Source of the DNA: a virus
Virus record (IMG/VR): IMGVR_UViG_3300020442_003949
Location: 1-64,000 of that record
DNA length: 64,000 bases
Strand: one strand, 5' to 3'
Shown: piece by piece, positions 12,371-44,634 of the stretch
Numbering within the stretch: the first letter of the stretch is position 1
Layout of the letters: each line of letters begins with the position of its first letter
Translations under genes and position numbers: made by a program
Notes under the pieces: model-generated
Told to the model about the DNA's origin: nothing
The model's database searches: none
Seen by the model: the letters and a program-made list of their open reading frames with translations, nothing else

Positions 12371-13831
12371 ATGGCACTACGTTTACGAAGAGGAACAGAT
12401 TTAGAAAGAATAGGTGTAGTCTTTGCAGAGGGAGAATTAGTTTATTCAACTGATACAAAAAGGCTGTTTATTGGTGACGGTGTAACAGCTGGAGGAATAC
12501 CTGTATCAGATTTAATTTCTGATATGTCTCCACAACTAGGTGCTTCGTTAGATTTAAACACATATGACATTGTAGGCTTTGGCAACATAAATGTAAATGG
12601 AGATATAACAGCCTCAGGCACACTAACTGTACCAAACATTATTACTGATGTACAAGGTAGTATTTTTGGAGACGACTCGTCTCCGTTAGTAGACGGTGCA
12701 AATAACAAAATAATTTTAGACAATAATTCAATTACAGACTTATCAGATGTAAACACAACTGGTGTACAAGTAGGAGATGTTCTTAAATGGGACGGTGCTA
12801 CTTGGGTTACTGGTCAAGATTCAGCAGAACTTGCGCTAACAGACCTAACAGATGTCATTACAGGTATTAACGTAGTAGGAGATTTTCTTAAATGGGACGG
12901 TGCTACTTGGATTGCTTCTGCTAGTGAAATATCTGACCTATCAGATGTAGACACAACTGGGTTACAAGTAGGAGATATTCTTAAATGGGACGGTGCAAAT
13001 TGGGTTGCTAATCCAGATGAAGGACAGCTTGAATTAGCAGACTTAACAGATGTGCTTGTAGGTGGTTTACAAGTAGGTGATATTTTAAGTTGGGATGGAG
13101 TTAATTGGACTCCTACGGCAGGTCCAGGTGATATTCTTGAAACTGATATACAAGGTTCTGTTTATGGTCTTGATAGTAGCATAATTGTAGATGCGGCTAC
13201 AGGTTCATTCATAGGTAATTTCACTGGCGCTGTCACTGGCGATATTAATGCATTAAATGTTAATGCTACGAACCTATATGTTACCAGTATTTACGATCAA
13301 CCTACTTTCTATAGTGATACAGTAGGATTTAATAACATAGCGACTTTTGTAAAAGAAACAGAAGTTGATGATACCGTAAATCGTGCAAACATAACTCTTG
13401 TAAGAAAATCTACAACGCTGGACTTATCATCGAGTATAGAGCCTAATGCTACTATTTTATTTGCGACAGACGATACTAATGGATTTACCTATAAAGGTGT
13501 AATTGGTGTTCATAACGACCTTATGACTTTTGCTGTTAATTCAACAGGAAATTTTTCAGACAATAACCAAATTTTTTTAGTTGATACTGGATACTTCGGT
13601 ATAGGAACAAAAACTCCAACAGAAAAATTACAAGTTGAAGGGAATACAAAAATCTCAGGATTTGTACAATTTGGAAGTTACACAACAGCAGAAAGAGATG
13701 ATTTAACAACTACAAACACGCCACAATACGCAACAAATTGGGGAATGGTAATATATAATACTGACACTAATAAATTCCAAGGTTGGCAAAACACCGGAGG
13801 AACTACTCCAGAATGGGTAGATTTGAGTTAA
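12371..13831 (+). CDS. Repeat-containing tail fibre protein
   Basis: This is a 486-residue virion fibre protein. The N-terminus LRLRRGTDLERIGVVFAEGELVYSTDTKRLFIGDG is the motif found at the start of many phage fibre and tropism proteins. Residues ~122-248 hold four copies of a ~35-40-residue unit of the form LxDVxTxGLQVGDILKWDGANWVA. A beta-rich shaft follows. Near the C-terminus GYFGIGTKTPTEKLQVEGN and NWGMVIYNTDTNKFQGWQNTGGTTPEWVDLS resemble chaperone-independent fibre tips. It is preceded by a late promoter. Its stop overlaps that of the convergent desaturase gene. Fibre role is well supported, receptor unknown. Confidence 0.85.
   Translation: MALRLRRGTDLERIGVVFAEGELVYSTDTKRLFIGDGVTAGGIPVSDLISDMSPQLGASLDLNTYDIVGFGNINVNGDITASGTLTVPNIITDVQGSIFGDDSSPLVDGANNKIILDNNSITDLSDVNTTGVQVGDVLKWDGATWVTGQDSAELALTDLTDVITGINVVGDFLKWDGATWIASASEISDLSDVDTTGLQVGDILKWDGANWVANPDEGQLELADLTDVLVGGLQVGDILSWDGVNWTPTAGPGDILETDIQGSVYGLDSSIIVDAATGSFIGNFTGAVTGDINALNVNATNLYVTSIYDQPTFYSDTVGFNNIATFVKETEVDDTVNRANITLVRKSTTLDLSSSIEPNATILFATDDTNGFTYKGVIGVHNDLMTFAVNSTGNFSDNNQIFLVDTGYFGIGTKTPTEKLQVEGNTKISGFVQFGSYTTAERDDLTTTNTPQYATNWGMVIYNTDTNKFQGWQNTGGTTPEWVDLS
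12738..13112 (+). repeat. Four tandem imperfect repeats inside the fibre gene
   Basis: Four copies of about 70-75 bp, starting near 12738, 12840, 12937 and 13040, encode the unit with GLQVGDILKWDG. The middle part CTTAAATGGGACGGTGC is identical in the first three copies. The fourth has drifted (TTAAGTTGGGATGGAGT). Such repeats may allow copy-number change by recombination. Confidence 0.8.
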
Positions 13832-14628
13832 TAATTATATTTAACTTCTTTACCACGAACAATATATTTTATTATATAGTAAAGAGGATCAAAATCCTTT
13901 AAACTTTTTTCAATAGATACGGTAGCTTTGTGAGGCTGAGCATGATGATTGTTATGCATTTCTTCGCCGAGTAATAATGGTTTGAGCCAAGGTATATTCC
14001 ACGACTTATCGATCGTTTCAATTCTTCTTTCTCCACCTACCATTTTAGCATACTTTGGCGTATGAACTAACGCTATTAATATGGCGTTTACGTGAAATTG
14101 CATTATCGCAGGAATGGCATACAAATATACAAATAAAATTGGATCGATTATTATTAATGTGATTACATAAACTAAAATAATTCCAAAATAATAATTATGG
14201 AAAAATCTGTTTATAGGATCTTTTAGAAGTTGAATATACTTTTTTGCTCCAAACACTAACTTTGTCTCATCATATACGCCCCACCAAGTTTTAAAAAATC
14301 TGTCTTTTGGATTATGCGGATCTTTATCAGTATCTGCGTTTGCGTGATGCTTTAAATGCATTAGAATATAGCCAACAGTTGAACCTGTAGAGCTTATTGT
14401 AAAGAAAAACGAAAAAATTATTTGCCAAAACTTATTAGTAGAAAATGTGTTATGAACATAATATCTATGAACACCTATACCAGATCCTATTCCGTGCATT
14501 AACCAAAAAGTCAGTAATACCATTAACCAATATGTTGATGTGCTGTAATATATGGCTGGAATGATTGCCAAGTGTAAAAACCATTGTAGGCTTTTTACTT
14601 TTCTGTGTGTGGGTTGTAATATTTTCAA
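13828..14628 (-). CDS. Membrane fatty acid desaturase (acyl-CoA delta-9 type)
   Basis: This is a 266-residue integral membrane di-iron enzyme. The three histidine boxes are present in the family order: H54RYYVH59, H91LKHH95 and H225NNHH229. Hydrophobic segments flank the boxes (residues ~15-55, 68-92 and 150-190). Homologues introduce a cis double bond into acyl chains, using oxygen and an electron donor. The start is a TTG overlapping the stop of the preceding 2OG oxygenase gene, with GGTAAG upstream. It is the last gene of the - strand cassette, and its stop codon overlaps the fibre gene stop from the other strand. It could alter host membrane lipids or a lipid-linked product. Family firm. 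Confidence 0.9.
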   Translation of the reverse strand: MKILQPTHRKVKSLQWFLHLAIIPAIYYSTSTYWLMVLLTFWLMHGIGSGIGVHRYYVHNTFSTNKFWQIIFSFFFTISSTGSTVGYILMHLKHHANADTDKDPHNPKDRFFKTWWGVYDETKLVFGAKKYIQLLKDPINRFFHNYYFGIILVYVITLIIIDPILFVYLYAIPAIMQFHVNAILIALVHTPKYAKMVGGERRIETIDKSWNIPWLKPLLLGEEMHNNHHAQPHKATVSIEKSLKDFDPLYYIIKYIVRGKEVKYNY

Positions 14629-15470
14629 AAAGACTTACCTATTACTTTCTTATTGTCTGTGGTTATTCTGTACAATAGTCTACCACCTAAAGTAGTAGCA
14701 TATCTTTTATGAACAGTTAGCCACTGATTACCTATAATAATATCACCATCATTATATTCATGAATATACATATACTTATTAGATTTATATGTATGATTAT
14801 CTAAATATTCAACCATAGAATCTGATTCTTCTTTTGGAACATCTTTAAATCCAAAAAATTGGAATTTAGGGTAAAACATTCCTTTTAATCCGTTATCAAA
14901 AGTCCGTATAAATTTTTGCCCAGCATTATTTCTATGTGATTTCCATACATTAGATGGAAGATGCTTTGTATATGTGTTTGGTTCAAATCCATATATACCT
15001 AATTTATCTTCTAACCAATCTTTTTTATCATTTGGTAAATCATCATAGGCCAAGCACATATTTAGCCAACCAATCTTACTTCCAGCACTATGCTCAACAG
15101 CATACAACATTACATTAGGTTTTCTCTCTAATTCTGCACTTGGACGATTTGCATGCCAATCTAAATCACTGTCATGTCCAAATAATCCTGTTTGCGATCC
15201 ATCTGGGTTAGTACCAGCACATACTCTTTGAATACCATTCAAACCTGGTATGCCTCTTTGTTGTTGCGTAGTTTCATCTAACAGTTCTAAATCGCCAAAT
15301 CTATTTGCAAATGCAAGAAACTCATCTGCCTCTAATACTTGCCCTCTAATAAAGATAACTAAATGATTTATATATAAATCAGCAAGTAATTTAAAATTAT
15401 CATCATTGAGATTTTTTACATCTATATTAGAAATTTCAATAAAATTGGCAGTCAAGTTTTTTATATCCAT
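14625..15470 (-). CDS. TauD/TfdA-like 2OG dioxygenase with atypical iron site
   Basis: This 281-residue protein has the layout of the TauD family: LVIFIRGQ near residues 37-44, LAFANRFGDLE near 52-62, the metal-site region WHANRPS at 105-111, and a C-terminal GDIIIGNQWLTVHKRYATTLGGRLLYRIT. The proximal site reads H106-x-N108, where TauD enzymes have HxD. The distal His is H254 and the oxoglutarate-binding Arg is R264 or R268. Asn for Asp could change reactivity or abolish iron binding; the codon is AAT. The gene overlaps the previous one by 35 bp and the desaturase by 4 bp. Family well supported, activity uncertain. Confidence 0.78.
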   Translation of the reverse strand: MDIKNLTANFIEISNIDVKNLNDDNFKLLADLYINHLVIFIRGQVLEADEFLAFANRFGDLELLDETTQQQRGIPGLNGIQRVCAGTNPDGSQTGLFGHDSDLDWHANRPSAELERKPNVMLYAVEHSAGSKIGWLNMCLAYDDLPNDKKDWLEDKLGIYGFEPNTYTKHLPSNVWKSHRNNAGQKFIRTFDNGLKGMFYPKFQFFGFKDVPKEESDSMVEYLDNHTYKSNKYMYIHEYNDGDIIIGNQWLTVHKRYATTLGGRLLYRITTDNKKVIGKSF

Positions 15471-16110
15471 TTTTTCTTCTATCTACTTTGTCTGCAATTG
15501 TTTTATATAAGTTATCTATTGATGTATGATATGGTGCATCGTAATATGCATGAAAATTTTCTTTTCTATATAGTATTCGTTGCGGAACATTATTAAATGT
15601 AATAAATTTATCATCCATAGAATATGTCTGCAAAGTTTCTATAGACTCAGCGTCACCTAATTGCCTATATTGTTTATGAATGAGCGACTGGCTCCATGAT
15701 TCTAGTTTTTCATTATATGGATAGATTGTTACAAAAGAATAATGCAAATTCTTAAATTCTTTTGTTGCTGCTGGTATTGTGTGTGTCCATAATGTGCTTC
15801 GTACATCTTTTCTAAATCTTTTAAGAGTATAATAATTCATACCTAATCTAAGGTACTTTCCTTGTCCATAAACTCTTGCTCCACTTATACTAGCAAGTTC
15901 ACCATTATACATAATTCCATATAGTGCGTCTAAAAATAATTTATCCCAATTAGTTTTACTGAATTTCCAAACTTCTTCTTCTAAATTTGAATCATACTTA
16001 GAACTGTAATCTAAAAAATGCTTATGAGAATTATGATCTTGTGTTAAAATTTCTTCTCTAAATCTATATACTAAATCATTATTTGTATCTAATTTAATTA
16101 ATTGTATCAT
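15436..16110 (-). CDS. GNAT-like acyltransferase domain protein (putative)
   Basis: This 224-residue protein has a core that looks like a GNAT fold: a strand pair ALYGIMYNGELASISGARVYGQGKYLRLGMNYYTLKRFR, then a helix after the expected acyl-CoA site, then LHYSFVTIYPYNEKLESWSQSLI. The usual Q/RxxGxG/A pyrophosphate loop is not clear, so this is a low-resolution call. The C-terminus is basic (DRRKNGYKKLDCQFY). It sits between two 2OG-oxygenase-type genes in the same operon. An alternative is an uncharacterised phage family with no enzymatic role. Confidence 0.5.
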   Translation of the reverse strand: MIQLIKLDTNNDLVYRFREEILTQDHNSHKHFLDYSSKYDSNLEEEVWKFSKTNWDKLFLDALYGIMYNGELASISGARVYGQGKYLRLGMNYYTLKRFRKDVRSTLWTHTIPAATKEFKNLHYSFVTIYPYNEKLESWSQSLIHKQYRQLGDAESIETLQTYSMDDKFITFNNVPQRILYRKENFHAYYDAPYHTSIDNLYKTIADKVDRRKNGYKKLDCQFY

Positions 16111-16122
16111 ATTGTTTTGTAA

Positions 16123-16773
16123 TTAGTTAGTTAAATTCCACATCTTTTCAAACGTATAGTTTCCTTTTAATCTAAGCGATATCAAATGCCGTTCCTTATT
16201 TCCTACAAGTGCCTTATGCGGAATGCAAGTATTAAGAACATAAGGATTTTTTTGTGAAAAGTAGTAATAATTAAAGTCGTCAACTTCTTGTTCTACATGC
16301 AATGCAGGAATATTAAACTCATTATATTTTTCCTTAGAAATAATCCACTTTCCACTTTTATCGTACCAAGCTTTATTAGTAACGTAATTACTTCCAGTCC
16401 AAACTATAACACTATCGTCACAATTACAGAGTGGTATATTCAATGCACATTTGACAATACAATCAAGTTTTGCATTATAATCAATATGATATTTTACTAT
16501 TTGTCCTTGTTTATTAGAGGAAAACGTTTTAAAATAAACTGCATAATCTAATTGCGGTAATTTTAAATCCGTTAACCATTTATCTATAATTTTCTTGTGC
16601 TCATAAGATATTTCATATCTGTCTAAAACTTCTATTCTATTAGTTATATTAGTATTGTCTAACTGACATTTTTCTTTTCTATAGATATCAAAAAATACTG
16701 AAGGAATATTAATCTCTAATTCTTTATAATAATTATATAGTTTCGTTAATCTTTTTCCAACTGTGCCAATCAT
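16123..16773 (-). CDS. 2OG-Fe(II) oxygenase-like protein (Asp/Asn hydroxylase type)
   Basis: This 216-residue protein carries a recognisable facial triad: H96-x-D98 in KYHIDYNAK and H186 in IPHKALVG. R195 or R201 in NKERHLISLRLKG could be the oxoglutarate salt-bridge residue. The intervening stretch (KCALNIPLCNCDDSVIVWTG) fits the small aspartyl/asparaginyl hydroxylase-like jelly roll, where a hydrophobic strand follows the HxD motif. The 5' end overlaps the preceding related oxygenase gene by 41 bp. Three such proteins (16123, 16733, 21145) occur in the cassette. Substrate unknown. Confidence 0.65.
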   Translation of the reverse strand: MIGTVGKRLTKLYNYYKELEINIPSVFFDIYRKEKCQLDNTNITNRIEVLDRYEISYEHKKIIDKWLTDLKLPQLDYAVYFKTFSSNKQGQIVKYHIDYNAKLDCIVKCALNIPLCNCDDSVIVWTGSNYVTNKAWYDKSGKWIISKEKYNEFNIPALHVEQEVDDFNYYYFSQKNPYVLNTCIPHKALVGNKERHLISLRLKGNYTFEKMWNLTN

Positions 16774-17467
16774 ATATTCTTTCTTTTTTAGGATTTTTTA
16801 TACCTGCTGCATGATCTACATTGCCTAATGACGATATTTTGATTGATGTTGCTTCATGCTTATTTATCTGCTCTGTAATATATGCTACAAACTTTGTATT
16901 TTGTAAATTGTCACCAACCCAAGGATCTCCCCAACATAATGTGTATTTTTCATCTCCATTATTATCCATTCCATGGAGGGCGGCGCCACTCATAAGATAT
17001 CCTGTCCAATCATTAGGAATAGGAACACGATTATTTTTCTCATCAATATAATATAACGGATTATTTTCTCTACCTTTCAAAACTAATCTTAATTTTGGTT
17101 CTAAAGTTTTCAGCTGATCTGCATAACAATCTGTATGATGCCTCATTTTCATTCCTGGCATTGTTCTAATAATTATTATTCGAGGCCTTATATCTGTCAT
17201 TGGAAAAATAAAATTATTACACAATTCTCTAAGGGATTTACAATCTTTTGTATATGGCAACCAATCCATATTTTTTTTATTGTTCACATCTTCATTTCCG
17301 TACAAACAAATCAAATAACTTTCTCGAAAGGTGCACCAATACCAATGCTCATTAGGTATAGCATCAATCTCTTCAGCCATTTGTGCTAAATCTTCATCTG
17401 TAACAGGAAAATCTAATTTCATTGCTGCAATATCTAATAGAGTAGAAAGCAGTCTATCATTCTTCAT
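16733..17467 (-). CDS. 2OG-Fe(II) oxygenase-like protein
   Basis: This 244-residue protein shows H111-x-D113 in MRHHTDCYA. KLRLVLKGRENNPLYYIDEKNNRVPIP, reminiscent of the substrate-side strands, precedes H165 in GAALHGMDNNGDEKYTLCWG. Upstream RPRIIIIRTMPGMKMR is the strand leading into the metal motif. This order matches aspartyl/asparaginyl beta-hydroxylase-like oxygenases. The ~60 residues after the core (TSIKISSLGNVDHAAG, then KKERIYDWHSW) are not assigned. It overlaps both neighbours by 11 and 41 bp. The function call is at superfamily level only. Confidence 0.62.
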   Translation of the reverse strand: MKNDRLLSTLLDIAAMKLDFPVTDEDLAQMAEEIDAIPNEHWYWCTFRESYLICLYGNEDVNNKKNMDWLPYTKDCKSLRELCNNFIFPMTDIRPRIIIIRTMPGMKMRHHTDCYADQLKTLEPKLRLVLKGRENNPLYYIDEKNNRVPIPNDWTGYLMSGAALHGMDNNGDEKYTLCWGDPWVGDNLQNTKFVAYITEQINKHEATSIKISSLGNVDHAAGIKNPKKERIYDWHSWKKINETI

Positions 17468-18113
17468 TTTTTAAAAATATCCTTTCATCACCTGAGTCCC
17501 ATTTTATTTCAACATTTTTTTTATTTTCTTTCATCTTCTTTTTTTCTTGAGGTTGAATTGGCGTTATATGTAATTCGTCTATATTACAACTTACAGGACT
17601 CTCAATTATCCATTGTACATACGCAGCAATATCTTCTTGCTTAAAATGATGAAAATGACTCCATTGATGCATAGTCTTATCAGTATCAACTCCACCGAAG
17701 CTAAAATAAGTTGTTTTGATTTTACTATCAAACCAATTTACATGCTTTGATAAGGATCTATTCAAATCTCTTAAGGCACGTTTTTCAATTGGGTACAATC
17801 TATTATCTGGTCTAAAATAATAATCTACAGCAGATCCAAAACTAATTATATGTCCACTTTTATTATTGTCTTTCCATTCTGTCCAAACATATTGTAACAG
17901 TTTTGTTTGTGCAAAATCAATTAATAGTGAAGAATTTATAAAAACATCATAGTTCATACTAATTTTTGCTACTTTCTTAAGATTTTCCGATGTTAATAAA
18001 TCTAAAGTATATGTTGCGTCATCCGATCTAGATATAGTATGAGCTGTTGGATATAATTCACATATTGCTTTAGCTATATTTTTTTTTGGGTTTCCAGTTA
18101 ATAATATTTTCAT
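17457..18113 (-). CDS. Short-chain dehydrogenase/reductase-like protein
   Basis: This 218-residue protein has an N-terminal nucleotide-binding segment MKILLTGNPKKNIAKAI, a shortened form of the TGxxxGIG loop. VFINSS follows near residue 60, where SDRs have NNAG, then ISFGSAVDYY, and Y-x3-K (YPIEKRAL) as the catalytic pair. A region after the active site, YFSFGGVDTD, corresponds to the PGxxxT segment. It is shorter than most SDRs, and the lysine-rich C-terminus (KKKMKENKKN) is unusual. It probably performs a redox or epimerisation step on a sugar or similar substrate (inference). It abuts the B12-type radical SAM gene. Confidence 0.65.
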   Translation of the reverse strand: MKILLTGNPKKNIAKAICELYPTAHTISRSDDATYTLDLLTSENLKKVAKISMNYDVFINSSLLIDFAQTKLLQYVWTEWKDNNKSGHIISFGSAVDYYFRPDNRLYPIEKRALRDLNRSLSKHVNWFDSKIKTTYFSFGGVDTDKTMHQWSHFHHFKQEDIAAYVQWIIESPVSCNIDELHITPIQPQEKKKMKENKKNVEIKWDSGDERIFLKNEE

Positions 18114-19703
18114 TTATAAAATTTTTTGTAAATAATTATTTTTTATATTAATTCTTCTTGCAATAGCATTTTCAACAAAGTCTAAATCATCATAATATAA
18201 ATCTTTAATTTCTTCATGCGTATAACCAATGTTTTTCATTCTATTATAATATTGAAATATACTCATACTTTTTTTCTGTCGTGCTCTACTATCATCATAG
18301 AATTCTTTTTCTAATTCAATTGCTTTTTCTACAGTTAAACAAGTATTAGTCCATCTATTATTATCACGCTCCTTTTCCATTGAATAACCATAAGCAGCTG
18401 GATTAGCAAATATTTTAGATACATTTTCATAAACATATCCTTTTGGTGTTTTGTAAAATCCAGCATTTTCTAAATTATATTTTTCAGCATCATCTACTGA
18501 TATTATCGGAGGAACCGAAAATGCATATCTATTCAATTGTATACCATCTAATGGATTATCTTTCCTATATAACCATTCCATTGTTTCCCTAATACTTGCT
18601 TCGTCTTCATAAGGCAAACCTACAATGAATCCTGCTGCTATATAAACTTTCTCTTTCCATATATCTTTTAACATATGCAAATCTTTTTCAATTATTTTTC
18701 TATCACCTCTTTTTCCAATAAACGATCCTGTTTTTTTATTCATAGTTTCTATGCCAAATTCAACAGATCGCAACCCTATTTCTTCTAACATGTAAGGCAT
18801 TTCTTTTGACTTTGACATTATTTCTAGTCTAGAATATGCGCTAAATTCAATTTTAAATGGCAATTCAGATATTACATCATATAAAAACCTTACTTTATTC
18901 ATACTATCATTAAGCGTATCATCTGAAATCATATATCCAGTTGTACCATATAACTCATAGTTTCTAATAAATTCTTCTTGCAATACTTCTTTTTCTTTTG
19001 TGTAATCACCAAATTTTTTACCATTTAGATTAAATGCACAAAAACTACACGCAAATACACATCCTCTAGCAGTTTCAATAGGTAAATTTTCATTTTCAAA
19101 AATATAATCAGTCTTATCATAAATTATTTTAGACTTGCTGAAATCATTATATTGGTACATTTTTTCAGTAATAATATTACCCCAATCGGTTTTTATTGTT
19201 TTTAACGGTGTACTATATTTTAAATGGTTAGCAAGTGCAACACTAGATCGTTCTGCCTGCCCTAATATCCAATAATCAACACCTTGTGTATCATAATTAG
19301 CTGCCTTATATCCACCGACTACAATTTTTGCTTTGTTATTTTTACTTTTTATAAATTCAAAAATAACTCGCATCTCATCGTCTATTAAAGGAAATAATCT
19401 AACATAATTACTAGCTATTATTGTACGTAAACTTGTATTAGTATTTAAATATAATTCTTTTAAATCGTGATCTGAAATATATTTAGTCCATAATGTTGTT
19501 GAAAATCCTACAAATAAAGTAGATTTATCTACATGAACACTTAATATTCTGCAAATAGTATTAATATCAAAAGATGCAAAAAAATCTATAACTTGAACAT
19601 TAAAACCATGTGATCTTAATTCTGTTGCAATTCTATAAGGTCCTGCATATCTGCTAACGCCGAAAACACCATTGACATCAGAAAATATTATAATTTCAGC
19701 CAT
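18114..19703 (-). CDS. Radical SAM protein with N-terminal B12-binding-like domain
   Basis: This is a 529-residue protein of the B12-binding/radical SAM type. Residues ~1-170 form a Rossmann-like domain (IIIFSDVNGVFGV, TELRSHGFNVQVIDFF, AKIVVGGYKAANY, VDYWILGQAE). The classic cobalamin-binding DxHxxG motif is not visible, so cobalamin binding is uncertain. The radical SAM core begins with C215-x3-C219-x2-C222 (ETARGCVFACSFC) and continues with YMISDDTLND, where GGE-type motifs usually lie, and VEFGIETMNKKT and FIVGLPYEDEAS. Many relatives are methyltransferases or cyclases in antibiotic pathways. The stop is 1 bp from the SDR start and the 5' end overlaps the methyltransferase gene by 8 bp. 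Confidence 0.85.
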   Translation of the reverse strand: MAEIIIFSDVNGVFGVSRYAGPYRIATELRSHGFNVQVIDFFASFDINTICRILSVHVDKSTLFVGFSTTLWTKYISDHDLKELYLNTNTSLRTIIASNYVRLFPLIDDEMRVIFEFIKSKNNKAKIVVGGYKAANYDTQGVDYWILGQAERSSVALANHLKYSTPLKTIKTDWGNIITEKMYQYNDFSKSKIIYDKTDYIFENENLPIETARGCVFACSFCAFNLNGKKFGDYTKEKEVLQEEFIRNYELYGTTGYMISDDTLNDSMNKVRFLYDVISELPFKIEFSAYSRLEIMSKSKEMPYMLEEIGLRSVEFGIETMNKKTGSFIGKRGDRKIIEKDLHMLKDIWKEKVYIAAGFIVGLPYEDEASIRETMEWLYRKDNPLDGIQLNRYAFSVPPIISVDDAEKYNLENAGFYKTPKGYVYENVSKIFANPAAYGYSMEKERDNNRWTNTCLTVEKAIELEKEFYDDSRARQKKSMSIFQYYNRMKNIGYTHEEIKDLYYDDLDFVENAIARRINIKNNYLQKIL

Positions 19704-20355
19704 TGTTCCAAATTAAAAAATCTTGTGCTTGTGTATTTAAAATAATGTCACAGTGAAATATTTTTTGTAAAAATTTATTGCAATAAAATGTAAAAAAATA
19801 ATCATGCGTTTTATGATAAATTGGTGTATTATTTACAAGAATATTATTTTGTATTAAATAGTAATAATTGGATCTTAAATTTAAATCTAAGCAAGAACCA
19901 AATTCTTCATATCTTTTCCTATACACCCAATCTTTAAAAAATTTATTATTATTATCTACAAAAGATAGTATTAACTTTTTACATATACCTTGCAAATAAT
20001 TAATTGTTGTTTTAAATGTAAAAAAATCAGTGTGTGTAAACACACTATAAGCAAAACAAATATCAAATTTTTCTTCTAATATAGGAAAAGGCTCATCTAT
20101 ATTGCCTTCATTATACATAGGACTAAAACGATTGTAATGTATAAAATTAGCATTACTAAATTCTATTTTTCCTTGACGTATCGCATCTTTTTCTACATCA
20201 ATGCACGTATAGTTTTCTTCTTTAATTTTACCTTGACTAAAATATAATAAATTTCCTCTATTTCCTCCATAATCTAATATTTTTTTATTTTTATAATCAC
20301 CAGCAAATTTTTCAAACAAACTAAATGTATGTTTAGTTTCATATCGTAGATGCAT
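19696..20355 (-). CDS. Class I SAM-dependent methyltransferase (putative)
   Basis: This 219-residue protein has the motif I region KILDYGGNRGNLLYF (residues ~25-39), an acidic end of strand 2 in YTCIDVEKDAI, and motif IV-like FDICFAYSVFTHTD near residue 100. This is the pattern of the small-molecule class I methyltransferases. The acceptor is unknown. It overlaps the B12-type radical SAM gene by 8 bp and is separated by 7 bp from the nitroreductase gene. Confidence 0.7.
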   Translation of the reverse strand: MHLRYETKHTFSLFEKFAGDYKNKKILDYGGNRGNLLYFSQGKIKEENYTCIDVEKDAIRQGKIEFSNANFIHYNRFSPMYNEGNIDEPFPILEEKFDICFAYSVFTHTDFFTFKTTINYLQGICKKLILSFVDNNNKFFKDWVYRKRYEEFGSCLDLNLRSNYYYLIQNNILVNNTPIYHKTHDYFFTFYCNKFLQKIFHCDIILNTQAQDFLIWNNG

Positions 20356-20362
20356 AATATAC

Positions 20363-21142: not shown

Positions 21143-21144
21143 AT

Positions 21145-21657
21145 TTAATCCTTTATATTTGTACATCCTACTAAATGCCATCTAACGTTATCTGAACTAT
21201 TAATGAATGTATGTGTTTCTTTAGTATTAACTAAATATACTTTTCCAGATTCTAAATGATATTGTTGTTTGTGCTTAGGAAAATAAAATACACAATTTTT
21301 GTTTGTCCAAATAGGTACATGAAGTCTCCATGTAGGGTCTGCGTGAAAAGAGTAACAAGTTTTACCTTCTTTAAACATACATCTTGTCCTAATCAGTTCA
21401 AAATCTTTTACAATTTTTTCAATCTCTGTATTTATAAAACTTTTATGAATTTGATCAAAGTCATATTCAGTTACTCCATTATACAGTTTTAAACTTTCTA
21501 GACCGTCAATTATATCCCAAGGACTTGGTACTCCTTTTCTATGTTGAACAGATATTCCTTCCATTCTAATTACTAACGGATGTTTCCTAACATCTTCTAA
21601 ACAATTTCTAATATCATCAATGTTAATTTGATACTTTAATTCTTTAACTAATTCCAT
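21145..21657 (-). CDS. 2OG-Fe(II) oxygenase-like protein (Asp/Asn hydroxylase type)
   Basis: This 170-residue protein has a compact jelly-roll with H105-x-D107 in CYSFHADPTWRLHVPIW, a distal H149 in TKETHTFIN and R159 in SDNVRWHLVG. This spacing and the RLHVPI strand are typical of aspartyl/asparaginyl hydroxylase-like oxygenases, which hydroxylate amino acids, free or in peptides. It is the clearest of the three related proteins in the cassette. It lies 2 bp after a radical SAM gene and just before the nitroreductase gene. Confidence 0.75.
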   Translation of the reverse strand: MELVKELKYQINIDDIRNCLEDVRKHPLVIRMEGISVQHRKGVPSPWDIIDGLESLKLYNGVTEYDFDQIHKSFINTEIEKIVKDFELIRTRCMFKEGKTCYSFHADPTWRLHVPIWTNKNCVFYFPKHKQQYHLESGKVYLVNTKETHTFINSSDNVRWHLVGCTNIKD

Positions 21658-21659
21658 AT

Positions 21660-34718: not shown

Positions 34719-34736
34719 TTATCTAATCCTATATCA

Positions 34737-37529: not shown

Positions 37530-38745
37530 TTCTAGTATTGCCGTAATGAATTACAATATAATTAGGATCATTAAATTTACGCCACGGATCAACAACAATA
37601 GAACCTACTGGTATATTGCAGTATAAAGAATCATGTTGTTCTTGATTCATATACGAATAGGTAGTAGTAGCTGAATGAGCAAGCAAAACTACACAAGGTG
37701 AAGTAGGAACAAAATTGTCGCCTGTTTGAGGATCAATGTATTGTGGTGTAATACCGTATTCTTCGCAATAATGGCCAATTAATATAGAGTAACTTCCTTC
37801 TTCGTACGGCACGTTAGGTTTATATGCTTTACCATGAATTAAAATAGGAAATCCGGATTTTTTTGATTCCTGCACTAATTTGCCAGCTAAATTCTTTGCT
37901 TGTATTTCTCTAGCTGTCATTATAGCATCAAACAAATCATACCCTAGCCCTAAATCGTCAGCCATGTATCGTAACGCAATATTATCTCTAGGATGACAAG
38001 CTCCGCCGTCGCCCATGCCTGCTTTCATATATTGCGGACCCATTATACGCCAGGTAGATTTAGCTAAAGCATCTGTTACAATATCAACATTTATATTTCC
38101 TTGTATTTCTGCTACATCTTGAATCATATTCACTAGAGATAATTTTGCTGAAATAAAAGTATTGTAAAATACTTTTATACATTCGCATTCGTCCCAAGTG
38201 CCAACAATATAACGTGGCTCATTCTGCATTATAGTCTTATAAAATTCAACTAATTTTTTTGCAGGACCTGTTTCTTTGCCGTCTTCGGTTCCTATCATTA
38301 CCATTTCAGGATTTACCATGTCCCACGCTACACTGCCCATAGCAATAAGATAAGGATTATACACAAATTCACAGTTTGTAACTAAAGGTGCTAACTCTCT
38401 GCGAACGGTTCCTGGCAAGACTGTTGATATTAGAACTAGGAGTTGAGATTTTTTCATATAATGATTTGCTTCTTTTAGCACAGATTTTGCTATATCATAT
38501 GAAAAATCTTTTGGAGGTAAATCTACGATAGGTGTTTTGCCATCGTATCTTGTATCGTGTGGTGTAGGTACTGCTACAAATACAATATCTTTTCCTTCAA
38601 CTACTTCTTTGATTGATTCAACAACTTTGACGTTATTTGACTTAACAGATTGTACATCATAACCATCAACTTGATAACCATTTTTTGCTATTTCAGTAGC
38701 ACAAGGCATACCTAATTTTCCTAAACCAATATATCCAATCTTCAT
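37522..38745 (-). CDS. UDP-glucose/GDP-mannose dehydrogenase family protein
   Basis: This is a 407-residue NAD-dependent enzyme that oxidises the 6-position of a nucleotide sugar to a uronic acid. The Rossmann motif GYIGLGKLGMPCA opens the protein, followed by VFVAVPTPHD and STVLPGTVRREL. YNPYLIAMGSVAWD lies in the binding domain. The catalytic cysteine motif is GGACHPRDN. IHGKAYKPNVPYEEGS matches the LGxAFKPxTDDxRES loop of the family. It confirms that the cassette handles nucleotide sugars. Exact donor (UDP-Glc, UDP-HexNAc or GDP-Man) is not resolvable. The stop overlaps the next start by 8 bp. Confidence 0.9.
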   Translation of the reverse strand: MKIGYIGLGKLGMPCATEIAKNGYQVDGYDVQSVKSNNVKVVESIKEVVEGKDIVFVAVPTPHDTRYDGKTPIVDLPPKDFSYDIAKSVLKEANHYMKKSQLLVLISTVLPGTVRRELAPLVTNCEFVYNPYLIAMGSVAWDMVNPEMVMIGTEDGKETGPAKKLVEFYKTIMQNEPRYIVGTWDECECIKVFYNTFISAKLSLVNMIQDVAEIQGNINVDIVTDALAKSTWRIMGPQYMKAGMGDGGACHPRDNIALRYMADDLGLGYDLFDAIMTAREIQAKNLAGKLVQESKKSGFPILIHGKAYKPNVPYEEGSYSILIGHYCEEYGITPQYIDPQTGDNFVPTSPCVVLLAHSATTTYSYMNQEQHDSLYCNIPVGSIVVDPWRKFNDPNYIVIHYGNTRNV

Positions 38746-38746
38746 C

Positions 38747-40036
38747 TTATTCCTTATTAAAAAAGTCTAGTAAAATTGGTATTAAATCTGTCTGATAATA
38801 CCAATTTTCAACATTCTTTACCGTATATAAATTATGTAATAAATCTGGTAGCATTTCATATAAAATTGATACCCATTGATTATCTGGTATACCATACAAC
38901 CTGTCAAATTCTTTTAAAACCTTCCTAAGCCTTTGATGATTGTCATCTATTTCATCATAACTGTGATCTATCCATTTATCAAACATTCTATATCCATAAC
39001 TTCTTAATGCAGCTACATTACCTTTTGGACCAGCAACAATAAAAGGCTGTAGCATTCCAAAAGGTTTAAATGACTTTTCTGTTATAAATGGAACTTCTAC
39101 CCTATCTTCCCATGTTTCACTCACTAATTGAAAATAACTTTTTAAAGTATGTATCCAACCCACTCTATCAGCTAAATTGATATCTAAATCTAAATTGTTG
39201 TGATTTTTACTCATATCATTTGCTTCAATTATTTTACAATGAATATCTCCAATTTTATGTAATTGTTCAAATTCTTTTTTATATTCGGAAAAATCCTCTG
39301 CCCAAGAATAATTTCTTAATTGTTCTGCATCACAAGGAGCACATTCGGTAAATCTACCTAAACTATATAATGCTCTATCATATCTATGATGCATTTGATG
39401 AGCTACTATTACAACTCTAGCCTTTCTAGGCCTCCTATTATAATTTAATGATTTATACGGAACACGTTCTTTTCTTATAATAGAATGAATTTTTTCTTGC
39501 TGATTTTTATTTGATATCGGATCATCCCATTGTATAAACCTTTCTAAATGTCTACCAGCAACTATATTATAAGCATTTTTAGTTCCTAGCTTACCTTTAT
39601 ACTCGCCTACTGCATGTGCTCCTGTTATTATAGTAATATTACTAGGTACAGTAAATAAAGCATTACAAAAATTCCCTATATGTGGATCTGCATAACCATC
39701 AAATGCGTTACATTCTGTGTCATCACATATTAGCCAGTGTACTAAACCATTTTCACTGTCTTCTTTTATCCGTTTTGACATAGGAAAAACACCTGGATTA
39801 TAATCCAGGGATTGCCAATCACCGAAAATGAAATCTAATTCACGGCGAGCATGAGAAAAAATAACATACTTGCTGCCAACAGGTAAGTCAAAAATTGTTT
39901 TATAAGTGTATAAACTTAATTTATCATAACTCTCTTTAAACATGCTTAGTGTACATATGGGTTTCACATCATTTCGAGGTATACCTACAAAAAGTTCTTT
40001 TCCTATTTTTGTAATTAGAAAAACAATTTCTGTCAT
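38747..40036 (-). CDS. Glycosyltransferase-like phage protein (ITEKSFKP type)
   Basis: This 429-residue protein is built like the ISEKTFRP protein at 32780 but larger. The key segment is VPFITEKSFKPFGMLQPFIVAGPKGNVAALRSYGY near residue 325, followed by the helix IDHSYDEIDDNHQRLRKVLKEFDR. The N-terminal half has LPVGSKYVIFSHARRELDFIFG and LVHWLICDDTECNAFDG and is not assigned to a known family. It is likely to transfer a sugar (inference). It abuts the dehydrogenase gene and overlaps a radical SAM gene by 4 bp. Confidence 0.55.
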   Translation of the reverse strand: MTEIVFLITKIGKELFVGIPRNDVKPICTLSMFKESYDKLSLYTYKTIFDLPVGSKYVIFSHARRELDFIFGDWQSLDYNPGVFPMSKRIKEDSENGLVHWLICDDTECNAFDGYADPHIGNFCNALFTVPSNITIITGAHAVGEYKGKLGTKNAYNIVAGRHLERFIQWDDPISNKNQQEKIHSIIRKERVPYKSLNYNRRPRKARVVIVAHQMHHRYDRALYSLGRFTECAPCDAEQLRNYSWAEDFSEYKKEFEQLHKIGDIHCKIIEANDMSKNHNNLDLDINLADRVGWIHTLKSYFQLVSETWEDRVEVPFITEKSFKPFGMLQPFIVAGPKGNVAALRSYGYRMFDKWIDHSYDEIDDNHQRLRKVLKEFDRLYGIPDNQWVSILYEMLPDLLHNLYTVKNVENWYYQTDLIPILLDFFNKE

Positions 40037-41439
40037 TTTTTATTATCCCAATAAAAATCATACATTTCAGGAAAAGTTTGTAAAAAATTTGTATCTCTAC
40101 GCCTATCATGCTCATCTACAAAAATTATAAAATCTTTCCTGTGTTGTTGTAAATCAACACTGTCAAAATTATTATCTTTAAATATATCAACAATCCTTTG
40201 AAATTTTGCAAGTTCCCATGAATAGAAACCGTAATTTTCTTTTCCTCTTATATTTCTATACTCAAGATTATTTTGCATAAAATCTCTATATTTCGTAAAA
40301 TGCTCTGACCAATTTTTGTATCCTATGAATATAGACTGATGTTTTGGCCAACGTAAGTAAGGTGTATCTAATATAATTGGAATTGCTTTATTTGTTCCAC
40401 CAAATTCTAATTTAAGTTCTAAAATATCTTTCAAAAATTTATCAAAAGAAAATATGCTTAAAACATTGAACGTGCTTGTGCATGTAAATGTACAATTTGG
40501 AACTTCTATTAGTATTCTTCTAATATTATGTAACCATTTATTGTAATCTAGTCCATATCTAATATAATTTGCTTGATCGCCGTATGCTTCTGCACTTGTA
40601 AAAATTTTTAATTTTTTTACTTTCCTTTGCCCACCAATAATTTTTATTTTTTCTACAAATTTATTCATTATTTCATCTGTAGGACAAAGATTACTATTGA
40701 TAGAAAATTCTAAATCAGGCCTTGGATTCAAAATTAAATCATCAAGAATTTTAAATGTATCTTTTGTTAAAAGAGGTTCTCCTCCTGTAATCCTGAAATG
40801 CTTTAGATCGTTTGCTAATGTAGGCCACCATTTCCAAAAAGCTTCTACGTAAGGATTATGTTCTTTATTAGGAATAGGCATGTGATCATGCCTTTTTAAC
40901 CAACTTAAATCATGCAAATTTGAACTAGTAGGATAAGGCCCATATTCATTTATTTCTTCCATCCATTTACTACTTACTTGCGGAGAACAATAACTACATT
41001 TAAAATTACAAACACTACTAAAACTAACTTCTAAATAAGATGGATTTACATTCTTTTTCCAATGAGAATTTATAATGTCATTTACATAAGGTTGTGCCCA
41101 CCATTCGTAAGACTTAAACATTCTATCACTTAATATAGAATCATTATTGTCCTCTACTTTCCAACAATAATCGCACTCACTAGGCCTTTTACCTTCTAAC
41201 ATTTCTTTTCTTGCAAGTTTTTTCCAATAAGTGTTATGCAATGCACTTGGGTGATGATTAACTTCGTCTAATGGTATTTTATGCGGTTCAGGATGATGAC
41301 AACTGTGAGTTAATCCATTATGTAAATGTAATGTTACTTGCTTCCATTTTGCTGTACAAAAAGTAGGAGATATATTATCTAAAACCGATTCTTTATAATT
41401 TTTTACTTTCTGCAAAAAATTGTTTTCTTCAATACTCAT
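40033..41439 (-). CDS. Radical SAM protein, twitch type (group A)
   Basis: This is a 468-residue protein with the N-terminal cysteine module (C28, C47, and C89-x2-C92 in SECDYCWKVED) and the core cluster C144-x3-C148-x2-C151 in SSVCNFKCSYCSPQVSSKW. GGEP occurs in FRITGGEPLLTKDT. Arrangement and the motif after the cluster match 25577, 27922 and 29213. It is separated from the other nine cassette radical SAM genes by the glycosyltransferase block, and is flanked by two glycosyltransferase-like genes. Start and stop overlap neighbours by 4 bp each. Confidence 0.85.
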   Translation of the reverse strand: MSIEENNFLQKVKNYKESVLDNISPTFCTAKWKQVTLHLHNGLTHSCHHPEPHKIPLDEVNHHPSALHNTYWKKLARKEMLEGKRPSECDYCWKVEDNNDSILSDRMFKSYEWWAQPYVNDIINSHWKKNVNPSYLEVSFSSVCNFKCSYCSPQVSSKWMEEINEYGPYPTSSNLHDLSWLKRHDHMPIPNKEHNPYVEAFWKWWPTLANDLKHFRITGGEPLLTKDTFKILDDLILNPRPDLEFSINSNLCPTDEIMNKFVEKIKIIGGQRKVKKLKIFTSAEAYGDQANYIRYGLDYNKWLHNIRRILIEVPNCTFTCTSTFNVLSIFSFDKFLKDILELKLEFGGTNKAIPIILDTPYLRWPKHQSIFIGYKNWSEHFTKYRDFMQNNLEYRNIRGKENYGFYSWELAKFQRIVDIFKDNNFDSVDLQQHRKDFIIFVDEHDRRRDTNFLQTFPEMYDFYWDNKK

Positions 41440-42359
41440 TCTGGATCAATTACTTTCTTAGATATCCGTGTAGGATTCATATAAACTGTTTTAAAAAATT
41501 TACTTTGCTTAAAATTTAACGGCTCTCTCGCAATTGGAAGATTCAACTGTTTAATTAACTGTTCCCCAGTAATATGTATTTGATTTTCAAGTTGAGCTAA
41601 TGAAAATTTTTCATATTCTGTAAACCATAAATTGTTCAAATATTGAAAATCTCTTACATTTACGTAATTCCAATTAGAACACATAGTTTTAAACAGACCT
41701 TCTCTAGCGCCCATAATAGCCCAATTACCATTTTCAACATCTGCACCAATCATCAACCATATATATAGTCTGTGTAAATTTTTCCAGTGATTTTCTTTAA
41801 ACTGATCTAATGTAGGTTTAACACCTTGATCAAGTGCCATTTTTACGCCTTCGCGAAATCCTGCTCGCCAAGCTTGATGTGGAGTTGCATTATTATATAT
41901 ATCAGAAAAACAAGAATTCATCTGTATATATTCTACATCCCAACAAAAATCTACTTGAGCATGTGGATTATCTTTATCTGCATTCTCATGAGTTTTCATA
42001 TTTAAAACAAATTCTTTAGGCCAACATTTTACTCCACCATTACCATACATAAGTCCATTTATTACATTATAGCCGCACCATGAAATAACTTTATTTTCTA
42101 ATTCTATATGTTCTTCAAAATCAATTTCCTGCGTTAAAAAATGTTCTCTTATACGATTATCACCATCAATTGTTACAAATCTATCTGTTTCAGATAGATT
42201 TGCACAGGCCTTGTGCGCTGAATCAGAACCTTCTACACCATGCACTCGTTTTGCCCAAGGAATTTTTTTGCACAAATCAGCGTAATTTTGTTCTGCGTTA
42301 GGCTCGTCATAACTTAGAAAAATAACATCATAATCTAAAACTTTAAATTTAGTAGACAT
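41436..42359 (-). CDS. Glycosyltransferase-like protein (FLSYDEPNA type)
   Basis: The ATG at 42359 is preferred because it overlaps the upstream stop by 11 bp; other in-frame starts at 42374 and 42386 are possible. Residues open as VLDYDVIFLSYDEPNAEQNYADLC, then AKRVHGVEGSDSAHKAC and a DxD-type site in FVTIDGDNRIREHFL. This is the same domain as the C-terminal part of 35871-37529, without the repeats. YGNGGVKCWPKEFVL and FREGVKMALDQ continue the similarity. It is probably a GT-A-like sugar transferase. Donor unknown. Confidence 0.65.
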   Translation of the reverse strand: MSTKFKVLDYDVIFLSYDEPNAEQNYADLCKKIPWAKRVHGVEGSDSAHKACANLSETDRFVTIDGDNRIREHFLTQEIDFEEHIELENKVISWCGYNVINGLMYGNGGVKCWPKEFVLNMKTHENADKDNPHAQVDFCWDVEYIQMNSCFSDIYNNATPHQAWRAGFREGVKMALDQGVKPTLDQFKENHWKNLHRLYIWLMIGADVENGNWAIMGAREGLFKTMCSNWNYVNVRDFQYLNNLWFTEYEKFSLAQLENQIHITGEQLIKQLNLPIAREPLNFKQSKFFKTVYMNPTRISKKVIDPE

Positions 42360-42912
42360 ACCCGACTCTTTCATAATTGTAATCAAAAATTTTATTTGTA
42401 TAAATGCTAATCAAACTACCTTCTTTGTTATGTTCAAATTCTTCAGAAAAATCTATAATGAAATAATGTTTTTTTATTAGTTGTTCTAAGTCAACTTGTA
42501 ATTGTTTATAAAGAATATTTGGATTATTAAATTCCGTTACACTAAAAAATAGTTGGAAATTATCTAAAGCAATATTTGTTTTACACTCTACTTCTAATTG
42601 ATCATTAATCAGGAATTTCCAACATACTTCATCACAACTTTGAATTATTGTAATTCCAGATCTATCAATATTTTGTGGAATTTGGTAAAGAATTTGATTT
42701 ATATTTTTAGAGAAAACATCTATTTCATTTTTCTTTTTAAATTCATATATATTTTTTGTTTCATTAAATTCTACAAAAAATTTGTTTGATGATTCTTTTC
42801 CTTCATGAATTAATTTTACATCTTCTATATCTACCTCAACAAAATTCTCCAAAGGCTGAATATTAGTAATAGAAAGAATTTTTCCATTGTCTGGATTAAA
42901 TTTTACAAACAT
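42349..42912 (-). CDS. Hypothetical protein (187 aa)
   Basis: This protein begins MFVKFNPDNGKILSITNIQ, a start I have seen in phage structural or fibre-associated proteins (from memory). It then has long alternating beta strands (EVCWKFLINDQLEVECKT, FQLFFSVTEF) and a charged region EEFEHNKEGSLISIY. It has no cysteine cluster or enzyme motif. It lies between two glycosyltransferase-like genes, 2 bp from one and overlapping the other. A binding or accessory role is possible, but function is unknown. Confidence 0.55.
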   Translation of the reverse strand: MFVKFNPDNGKILSITNIQPLENFVEVDIEDVKLIHEGKESSNKFFVEFNETKNIYEFKKKNEIDVFSKNINQILYQIPQNIDRSGITIIQSCDEVCWKFLINDQLEVECKTNIALDNFQLFFSVTEFNNPNILYKQLQVDLEQLIKKHYFIIDFSEEFEHNKEGSLISIYTNKIFDYNYERVGYVY

Positions 42913-42914
42913 TA

Positions 42915-43739
42915 TTATATTCCTAAATACTTTTCATACGTACTTACAATACTTTCAGTTGCAAAATCATTATTTACATAATGGAATATTCCATCTTGCA
43001 AATAATTACCAATATACAATTTCAAGTCATTTGTAAGATATACTGGAACTTTATCTTGCCAATTATCTTTAACTGATTGCCAATCTTGAACATAGGGTTT
43101 CATATGAACAAATTTTAAAAAATCTACTTTTCTATTTGTTATTTCCGTATCATTATTTAGAATTTTACTTGCAATTGCACAAGTTAAATCCATACTAGGT
43201 TGCTTTGGATAAAATTCTTTACAATATTGACCATAAAAAAGTTCCCAATTTTTTGAAATTAATTCTACCCAAGTAAAAAAATCTTGCGAAGACGGACTTT
43301 TCTTAAAATAATGCAAACCGTTATATAAATTAGGTAAATTATTATATGTAAATGATTTCCTATAATAATCATTAGTGATTAATGTAGATCTATAAGTAAA
43401 AACCTTAGATAAGTAAAATAAATTATAATTTTGAAAAAAATTCCACCACGCATCTAACTGATTTAAAACTAAAATATCAGTATCTAATACAATTGTTTCG
43501 TCATAAGGACTATTGTGATAAATTTTCCATCTATTAAGCACATCATATCTTGAATTATCATGCTCTATCCAAGAAGGTTTTATTACAAAATCAAAAATGC
43601 TTTTATATTTTTTTGGAACTCTTGAATTAGTGATTATTGATATTGGAATTTCTGAATTAATCTTTAAACTAACAGCAGCCAAGCAAGCCTGTTTGACATA
43701 AGAATTACCTTTAGCATAAAATACATATCCTTTAGACAT
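42915..43739 (-). CDS. Glycosyltransferase-like protein (DTD motif, GT8-like)
   Basis: The start is the ATG at 43739, which has AAGGA upstream and overlaps the preceding stop by 8 bp. The protein has an N-terminal nucleotide-binding strand YVFYAKGNSYVKQACLAAVSLK, then ISIITNSRVP, and a DxD in ETIVLDTDILVLNQLDAWW. LYNGLHYFKKS could line the acceptor pocket. The order is that of GT8/GT-A enzymes. The upstream gene (43732-44634) is a diverged paralogue with YDETLLLDTDIV. Acceptor unknown. Confidence 0.7.
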   Translation of the reverse strand: MSKGYVFYAKGNSYVKQACLAAVSLKINSEIPISIITNSRVPKKYKSIFDFVIKPSWIEHDNSRYDVLNRWKIYHNSPYDETIVLDTDILVLNQLDAWWNFFQNYNLFYLSKVFTYRSTLITNDYYRKSFTYNNLPNLYNGLHYFKKSPSSQDFFTWVELISKNWELFYGQYCKEFYPKQPSMDLTCAIASKILNNDTEITNRKVDFLKFVHMKPYVQDWQSVKDNWQDKVPVYLTNDLKLYIGNYLQDGIFHYVNNDFATESIVSTYEKYLGI

Positions 43740-44634
43740 TTTTAAATTCCTTATCAATGCATCTATTTAAACTAAACTTATTCATTACATGAACTGATAA
43801 ACCATTTGTAACTGCTAGTGTATATTCTCCTAAATAATCTTCTTTTTCTAACAAGAATGTTATTTTTTGGTCTTTAATATTGTAACAGATATCTTTATCT
43901 GTAGTATAGTATAACCTTCCTGGCATAGATTTTGCGAAATCACCTTCTGTATAACCATTCATAATATGAATAGCAATACTAAATGCATGATCATTTCTAA
44001 AATAAGATTGATTAATTTGGAAAATTGATCTATAATGATTCCAGTTTTCTTGTATGTGTTGAACTAAATCAAAAAATATTCTATTTTCTTTAGATTTCCG
44101 AAAAAATACTACAGTAGCCCAATAAAATTTAACTCCTATGTCATTTATATACGTAAATTCATTAGATTTTCTGAATAAAGTTAAATCACATGCATCATGA
44201 TAAATTAAAAAATTATTATTTTGCTGAAAACACTGTAAATATTGATCATTACATAAAACAATATCTGTGTCTAATAATAATGTTTCATCATACGGAGAAA
44301 TATCATAAGCTTTTGATCTTAATTGATTTTTAAATTGTAATTTAATTCTAGTTAGGGTGCCATCTCTATAATTTTTATAAAAATGATTTTCTGTTGTGCT
44401 TAATACCGTATTTTCATTATTATTTTTTTCCGACCAAACTACTTCTATAATATTATCAAAAACTTCCTCTGCATCTTGATATTGTTTTTTTAGATATTCT
44501 AAACTATCTGTAACTACTGTTGTAGGTAAATTAAGGTAATATTTTACTTTTTTTGCAAGAAAATATGCCTGTTTTAAATAATCTATTTTTGCATTATTCC
44601 TTGCAAAAAGTAAAATGCCCGCAGATTTATTCAT
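43732..44634 (-). CDS. Glycosyltransferase-like protein (DTD motif, GT8-like)
   Basis: This 300-residue protein opens with GILLFARNNAKIDYLKQAYFLAKKVKYYL. TTVVTDSLEYLK follows, and the DxD motif in SPYDETLLLDTDIVLCND corresponds to that in the adjacent paralogue. The stretch GVKFYWATVVFFRKSKENR resembles the strand holding the acceptor in such enzymes. It overlaps its neighbours by 4-8 bp. It is the first glycosyltransferase-like gene transcribed in the cassette. Confidence 0.68.
   Translation of the reverse strand: MNKSAGILLFARNNAKIDYLKQAYFLAKKVKYYLNLPTTVVTDSLEYLKKQYQDAEEVFDNIIEVVWSEKNNNENTVLSTTENHFYKNYRDGTLTRIKLQFKNQLRSKAYDISPYDETLLLDTDIVLCNDQYLQCFQQNNNFLIYHDACDLTLFRKSNEFTYINDIGVKFYWATVVFFRKSKENRIFFDLVQHIQENWNHYRSIFQINQSYFRNDHAFSIAIHIMNGYTEGDFAKSMPGRLYYTTDKDICYNIKDQKITFLLEKEDYLGEYTLAVTNGLSVHVMNKFSLNRCIDKEFKNV

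Follow-up and report, generated by a model that had tools for sequence, protein, structure and literature searches.

An island of radical SAM enzyme genes at a fixed site in marine jumbo T4-like phages

What would a T4-like phage do with ten radical S-adenosylmethionine (rSAM) genes packed into one operon-like block? The question is raised by the IMG/VR virus record IMGVR_UViG_3300020442_003949, of which we analysed the first 64 kb (hereafter the window); the whole record has 91,012 bases and is itself a fragment. In the window, a block of 34 genes runs on the minus strand from 44978 to 13828 (~31.2 kb), and rSAM genes occupy 12.6 kb of it. A first-pass annotation, made from the sequence alone, had described this block as a biosynthetic operon in a T4-like phage, placed it at 13828-44634 and reported that its genes overlap almost everywhere. 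The operon reading is supported by synteny, by a fixed site and by a portal protein 45-51% identical to those of T4-like jumbo phages. The block does lie on one strand, but its start belongs at 44978 with the gene u44; likewise, 20 of the 33 neighbouring gene pairs overlap while the rest do not, with 31 gaps of at most 30 bp and two longer ones.

A fixed-site, variable-content island in a phage family

The block is a fixed-site island of variable content in a family of marine jumbo T4-like phages. Relatives of it occur in at least 80 further contigs of marine viruses; the contigs come from one viral-contig scan with the rSAM protein rS9, which gave 333 related stretches, and the best 80 of the 333 (72-90% identical) were taken. 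Most of these 80 stretches hold the core GT36-MT35-u34-rS9 with rS5 close by. The first-pass annotation had proposed a search for the same gene order in other phages, and the island is indeed syntenic in most of the 80 independent contigs. It had also named two ways in which its reading could fail, a chance mix of unrelated genes and an assembly chimeric with a bacterial contig; both are ruled out by the synteny across 80 loci, in which the same gene set recurs in related phages.

In ten relatives followed gene by gene, the island is flanked by the giant, fibre and u45 genes and by F12371-F12022-F11385 wherever the borders are covered. Its core, which consists of GT-A glycosyltransferases, a methyltransferase-like protein, a small conserved protein and two rSAM enzymes, is constant in order and the remainder is shuffled. 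The rSAM content is high throughout, with 4-22 rSAM domains in each of 44 records counted, up to about 23 rSAM genes in long islands, and 187 rSAM genes among the 525 genes of eleven islands (the window's included). Relatives also carry a nested block of GDP-mannose 4,6-dehydratase (3.7e-135), DegT aminotransferase, AMP-ligase and Asp/Asn-hydroxylase-like genes, along with Aminotran_3 and Aldedh genes, and the nitroreductase, sulfotransferase-like protein and methyltransferase of the window have no full-length match in any relative compared. Three long relatives (G043, G041 and G003; loci L190, L191 and L192) have a gene for an A-type Fe-S carrier (PF01521), a possible source of clusters for the rSAM enzymes.

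Outside the island the record has genes of T4 type, and its T4-type portal is closest to those of jumbo phages, with 51% identity to the PA5oct/Wroclawvirus and Agrobacterium Atu_ph07 portals; relatives of 236-382 kb were found for this 91-kb fragment. Pseudomonas phage Cassandra encodes a giant virion structural protein; after it come several unannotated proteins and a u45 homologue, and no rSAM island is annotated behind the latter. We thus place the island immediately after a virion operon ends. The island proteins tested against isolated phages had no match or only distant ones (~21-27% identity). Membership in the pelagimyophages is not supported, since portal and u45 indicate Wroclawvirus-type jumbo phages and the sole pelagiphage match of rS9 is at 24%; the Moraphage lineage of PMC12619734 was rejected too, as it falls outside the T4 group and the words 'radical SAM' do not occur in that paper's text.

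The genes of the island and its borders, with 2-oxoglutarate abbreviated as 2OG and short-chain dehydrogenase/reductase as SDR, are as follows.

44631..44978 (-): u44, 115 amino acids, first island gene
43732..44634 (-): GT44, paired with 42915; GT8-like by eye, no useful Pfam match; Bdellovibrionales locus L166 holds homologues
42915..43757 (-): GT43, GT8-like by eye; phrog_1903 (unknown function)
42349..42912 (-): u42, conserved unknown
41436..42386 (-): GT41, homologous to the GT-A domain of GT36
40033..41439 (-): rS10, N-twitch rSAM, NF033640 at 331.7 bits
38747..40036 (-): GT39, GT-B-like by eye, relative of GT33
37522..38745 (-): UDP-sugar dehydrogenase, above Pfam cut-off
35871..37529 (-): GT36, N-terminal repeats and GT-A glycosyltransferase domain; island core
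35027..35890 (-): MT35, methyltransferase-like by eye; island core; Bdellovibrionota homologues
34798..35067 (-): u34, ~80 amino acids; island core; 60-76% conserved in phages
34188..34718 (-): small kinase-like protein, by eye
33630..34172 (-): 2OG-oxygenase-like, HxD motif only
32780..33697 (-): GT33, GT-B-like by eye; homologue in L147
31708..32787 (-): rS9, family RC, SPASM-type rSAM; most conserved core enzyme
30597..31682 (-): rS8, family RC rSAM
29213..30583 (-): rS7, N-twitch rSAM, NF033640 at 191.9 bits
27922..29220 (-): rS6, N-twitch-like rSAM, 142.5 bits, under the 170 cut-off
26985..27797 (-): QueC-like PP-loop ATPase, four-Cys site
25577..26980 (-): rS5, N-twitch rSAM, NF033640 at 412.5 bits; trio member, 50-61% to Bdellovibrionota
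24991..25584 (-): sulfotransferase-like by eye, no family match
23772..25001 (-): rS4, family RB rSAM
22813..23772 (-): rS3, family RC rSAM with SPASM
21660..22802 (-): rS2, family RB rSAM; trio member, 56-66% to Bdellovibrionota
21145..21657 (-): Asp/Asn-hydroxylase-like, weak, below cut-off
20363..21181 (-): nitroreductase family, above Pfam cut-off
19696..20355 (-): class I methyltransferase, below cut-off
18114..19703 (-): rS1, rSAM with partial B12-binding-domain match
17457..18113 (-): SDR-like, weak match
16733..17467 (-): 2OG-oxygenase-like, homologue in Bdellovibrionota locus L146 (2e-25)
16123..16773 (-): 2OG-oxygenase-like, HxD...H...R motif
15436..16110 (-): GNAT-like by eye, no family match
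14625..15470 (-): TauD-family dioxygenase, above Pfam cut-off
13828..14628 (-): fatty-acid desaturase family, above Pfam cut-off
45038..45964 (-): u45 (border), final gene of the late fibre operon
45991..51691 (-): three fibre-like genes (border)
12371..13831 (+): F12371 (border), convergent tail-fibre-like gene with late box

The first-pass count of ten clear CX3CX2C rSAM genes is borne out by ten minus-strand open reading frames with the motif (rS1-rS5 and rS6-rS10), all of which match Pfam Radical_SAM at E<=3.1e-4 in a search of the record itself and eight of which exceed the curated cut-off. By mutual similarity they fall into three families of SPASM/twitch type, RN (rS5, rS6, rS7 and rS10, with an N-terminal Cys-rich twitch/SPASM-like domain), RB (rS2 and rS4) and RC (rS3, rS8 and rS9, with C-terminal Cys), plus rS1. 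The 170-bit cut-off of NF033640, a twitch-domain rSAM family whose model names no function, is passed by rS5, rS7 and rS10, while rS6 and the other six fall below; rS2-rS4, rS8 and rS9 belong to other families.

The remaining enzyme labels fared unevenly. Pfam cut-offs are exceeded by the desaturase, TauD, nitroreductase and UDP-sugar dehydrogenase proteins, but the methyltransferase at 19696, the SDR and the 2OG enzyme at 21145 (Asp_Arg_Hydrox, 5e-4) match only weakly or below cut-off. Family searches gave no naming match for the other three of the five 2OG enzymes (16123, 16733 and 33630), the sulfotransferase-like (24991), GNAT-like (15436) and kinase-like (34188) proteins, the GT8-like pair (42915 and 43732), GT33 or GT39, whose labels come from motif or eye; among the glycosyltransferase-like genes, GT36 is one by fold. 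The QueC-like ATPase shows the PP-loop and the four conserved Cys, yet neither Pfam nor NCBIfam gave a QueC family match, and QueC proper was rejected, its one match being a weak C-terminal one to phrog_1550. Among the window's island proteins, a transmembrane segment is predicted in the desaturase alone.

Promoters and bacterial kin

How the island is expressed bears on what it may do. The first-pass annotation had placed it downstream of a late promoter, which is literally so in the window, where a late-type box (TATAAATA) lies at 45000-45007 (-), 29 bp upstream of u44, with a second copy at 45988-45995. This is not the rule in the family. Among 19 distinct sequences (the window's included), 15 have a sigma-70 promoter of the TTGACA-16/17-TATAAT-like kind upstream of u44, mostly 26-31 bp before the start, against a mean of 0.83 and a maximum of 3 in shuffled controls. 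The T4-type late box, ATAAATA, stands upstream of other genes: u45 (15 of 19 distinct sequences), a fibre gene (12 of 16) and F12371 (all 8). Before u44 it occurs in the window only. In the 251-kb relative G041, no gene start on that strand other than that of u44 has a near-consensus sigma-70 site within 80 bp. Because a sigma-70 promoter stands before u44 while the virion genes carry late boxes, the island is a separate, probably early transcription unit in the family; a late-operon reading for the whole family is contradicted by these promoters, and the window is an exception to the pattern.

A scan of 84,980 genomes for the rS5 family found 34 loci, mostly in metagenome-assembled genomes (MAGs) of Bdellovibrionota and on contigs of up to 937 kb. 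In many of the bacterial loci the trio rS5-rS2-rS9 has GT36/GT41 or MT35 close by, mostly without fibre genes, and L146 adds homologues of the QueC-like, B12-rSAM, 2OG, desaturase and TauD genes. At L166 the arrangement u45-u44-GT8-GT8-u42-GT41-rSAM (u42 by position only) is repeated near the contig end, and the locus, which adjoins genes recognised by eye as pheT, trmD and rnhB, is apparently chromosomal. The MAG labels of L157, L158, L160 and L162 (Rickettsiales, Gammaproteobacteria, Chloroflexi and Acidimicrobiaceae) were rejected as hosts, and we treat these loci as misbinned contigs of the phage family because of their phage gene order and tree position.

In trees of rS5 (a quick build) and rS2, the phages form a clade (SH-aLRT 99 and 97) beside or within Bdellovibrionota; the direction of transfer is provisional because both roots hang on very long branches. 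NF033640 was found above cut-off in 41 of 144 Bdellovibrionota genomes and 0 of 99 of a comparison phylum, and rS5 at E<=1e-20 in 36 of 192 and 2 of 200, respectively; several of the Bdellovibrionota genomes sampled had already come up in the rS5 scan, and one of the two comparison hits is a phage-contaminated MAG. We infer that marine Bdellovibrionota, which are predatory bacteria, are the likely source of the island and probably also the host group of the phages.

Bdellovibrionota genomes holding a locus have 10-37 N-twitch matches. Their chromosomes also contain long arrays of N-twitch rSAM genes (L176-L182 and L184-L186), with about a dozen in 30 kb in G047:C1 and one array on a single 2,657,893-base contig, judged by its size to be a complete chromosome. 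Such arrays are apparently undescribed, and we found no relevant literature on rSAM enzymes in Bdellovibrio. The trio, GT36/41 and MT35 are common to them and the phage islands; they differ in that u34 was not detected and that some include membrane-bound and classical GT2 glycan genes, as in G051 and G064, where the arrays sit among GT2, NTP-transferase and GDSL-type genes.

What the island may make

We propose, with a probability of roughly 0.4, that the island encodes an early-expressed soluble pathway that assembles and tailors a glycan and acts on the host envelope; product, substrate and host are predictions. After early expression, glycosyltransferases would add sugars to a carrier that can be reached from the cytosol, using UDP-uronate in the window and GDP-deoxy and amino sugars in relatives, and the rSAM, 2OG, methyltransferase and other enzymes would derivatise them. 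The host's own export machinery would then set the product on the envelope, where it would change the receptor and exclude competing phages. The gene set would vary because surface glycans vary.

A glycan product is argued for by the glycosyltransferases, the sugar-nucleotide enzymes and the kinship with glycan islands. For the AlphaFold model of GT36 (pLDDT 85), all of the 50 best PDB folds listed are glycosyltransferases, including PGANT9, ArnC, PcManGT and WrtF, with low TM scores for this multi-repeat protein; PDB sequence searches with GT36 and MT35 gave nothing usable. No exporter or polymerase candidate (at least three hydrophobic segments) was found among the 525 genes of the 11 islands by a simple hydropathy scan, which under-counts in that desaturases score only one or two segments. 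The absence of such genes points to an acceptor accessible from the cytosol. The first-pass annotation had left a glycan, a lipid, a peptide and virion proteins as options, and what was found supports the assembly and tailoring of a glycan better than a free peptide or modification of DNA, short of proof.

Several points weigh against this proposal. We know of no homologue with a known product, and SPASM/twitch rSAM enzymes are best known for peptide substrates. The AlphaFold model of rS9 (pLDDT 85) folds like BlsE, SuiB, anSME and SkfB, and BlsE, which acts on a sugar nucleoside, ranks about equal with SuiB/anSME, which act on a peptide or protein, so the fold does not settle the choice of a sugar or a peptide substrate. 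At L156, as in some bacterial copies, the trio stands without other glycan genes nearby, and the host assignment rests on MAGs and two gene trees with very long outgroup branches. Further, no sigma-70 promoter precedes u44 in the window. A late box stands there instead, and this, together with the position beside the fibre genes, favours the main rival, namely that the enzymes modify the phage's own fibre or baseplate proteins in the cytosol by glycosylation and rSAM/2OG chemistry, tuning adhesion or shielding the particle. Where the border is covered, the island always lies directly downstream of the fibre operon and u45; export genes are absent, SPASM/twitch rSAM and Asp/Asn-hydroxylase-like enzymes are present, the best GT36 folds include polypeptide GalNAc-transferases, and the apparently chromosomal L166 joins u45-u44, the GT pair and GT41 with rSAM genes. 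We nevertheless consider virion decoration less likely, as the relatives' islands have a sigma-70 promoter separate from the late boxes of the virion genes, an early-type promoter that favours a host-directed role, and the bacterial trio homologues mostly lack fibre genes.

A pathway of the RiPP type (ribosomally synthesized and post-translationally modified peptide), in which the rSAM enzymes modify a precursor such as u34 or another small conserved protein and sugars are added, is improbable. The nearest sequence and fold relatives of RN and RC do include SkfB, SuiB and anSME, and u34 is small and exceeds its neighbours in conservation. However, u34 is unconvincing as a precursor, having a strongly conserved C-terminal half and no Cys-rich or variable core; it has no recognisable domain that we could find, is seen only in phage-type loci and was not detected in the chromosomal bacterial loci. 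No precursor-like gene was found (u34 being the one inspected), nor an exporter candidate in the islands. Equally improbable is a collection of accessory metabolic genes acquired independently in a hypervariable region and sharing no product. Content does differ strongly between relatives, and three of the window's enzymes are without a full-length counterpart in those compared, but the order of the core is invariant, the trio with GT and MT35 recurs in phages and chromosomes, and a wider suite recurs in L146. Least probable is that glycosyltransferases, with tailoring by the rSAM enzymes, hypermodify the phage's DNA. An early-type promoter, cytosolic enzymes and the FolE and QueE-like genes near the left end would fit it, whereas the homologues are located in bacterial chromosomes and no C5-methylase was found. 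Eight records, mostly fragments, gave no match to the TGT family (PF01702), by which a divergent DpdA may be missed, and the PF00303 gene of three relatives is a thymidylate synthase (Asn of PFNIA) and not a dCMP hydroxymethylase, with none in four other, partial records.

Neighbouring genes, known systems and significance

Outside the island, GTP cyclohydrolase I (FolE) and a QueE-like rSAM gene are adjacent at 3238-4778 (+), suggesting a 7-deazaguanine route. A SbmA/BacA-like peptide transporter (250-1221, +; Pfam 2.7e-131) adjoins an ABC substrate-binding protein of the basic-membrane-lipoprotein type (1175-2281, +; PDB 3s99, 6.5e-73), an unusual transport pair for a phage. At 8449-10916 (+), a phage AAA ATPase and a DUF2201 metallopeptidase/VWA protein form a MoxR-VWA-like pair that is kept in relatives, and 52331-64000 (-) is part of a single 5505-amino-acid open reading frame (52331-68848 of the record) kept in four relatives.

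Phage-directed change of the host surface glycan is familiar from the gtr serotype-conversion cassettes of temperate phages, which have a membrane flippase (GtrA) and a bactoprenol glycosyltransferase/polytopic Gtr; the 11 islands here hold no polytopic candidate in the hydropathy scan. We know of no rSAM enzymes in the glycosylation of mycobacteriophage virions. In that system, phage glycans are found on virion proteins (Freeman et al. 2023, cited in PMC12619734). Closer is the host recognition cluster (HRC) of pelagimyophages, a large and hypervariable island that lies among the structural and tail-fibre genes of marine T4-like phages, is read as changing the host surface and is one for which rSAM cassettes are already published (PMC7029224). 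The phage family studied here shares a variable island with glycosyltransferases adjoining tail-fibre genes; the HRC is bounded by VrlC and gp14 (PMC7029224), and the border genes here are u45/u44 and F12371. The family differs in its jumbo lineage (portal closest to Wroclawvirus and Atu_ph07), in the 10-23 rSAM genes of long islands, and in having a conserved core operon that is served by a sigma-70 promoter of its own, as well as homologues in Bdellovibrionota. Another T4-like genome, TARA_ERS488813_N000010 (183 kb), carries 12 rSAM genes and an A-type Fe-S carrier, which the part of the source that describes it treats as Fe-S metabolism genes, giving no island, order or glycan context (PMC5332604). 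Compared by description, its likeness lies in many rSAM genes in one T4-like marine genome and in the carrier, which the three larger relatives also have. The literature searched held no earlier description of the island architecture, the sigma-70 promoter or the Bdellovibrionota link, and these seem new; rSAM cassettes in marine T4-like phages were known before.

About half of the genes in some islands are radical enzymes of uncharacterised families, and to our knowledge nothing comparable exists in viruses. The minimal unit of one glycosyltransferase and three rSAM enzymes is also present in bacterial chromosomes, which means that a predator amenable to cultivation could serve to test its chemistry. 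A broader and more doubtful idea is that Bdellovibrionota and their jumbo phages share an undescribed rSAM-driven pathway, with a glycosyltransferase and the rS5-rS2-rS9 trio as its minimal unit, whose product would be a modified surface glycan or glycoprotein of a new class, the phages carrying swappable versions as a weapon in a contest over surface recognition. If the host assignment is true, a large group of phages would infect marine predatory bacteria, with a surface chemistry in common.

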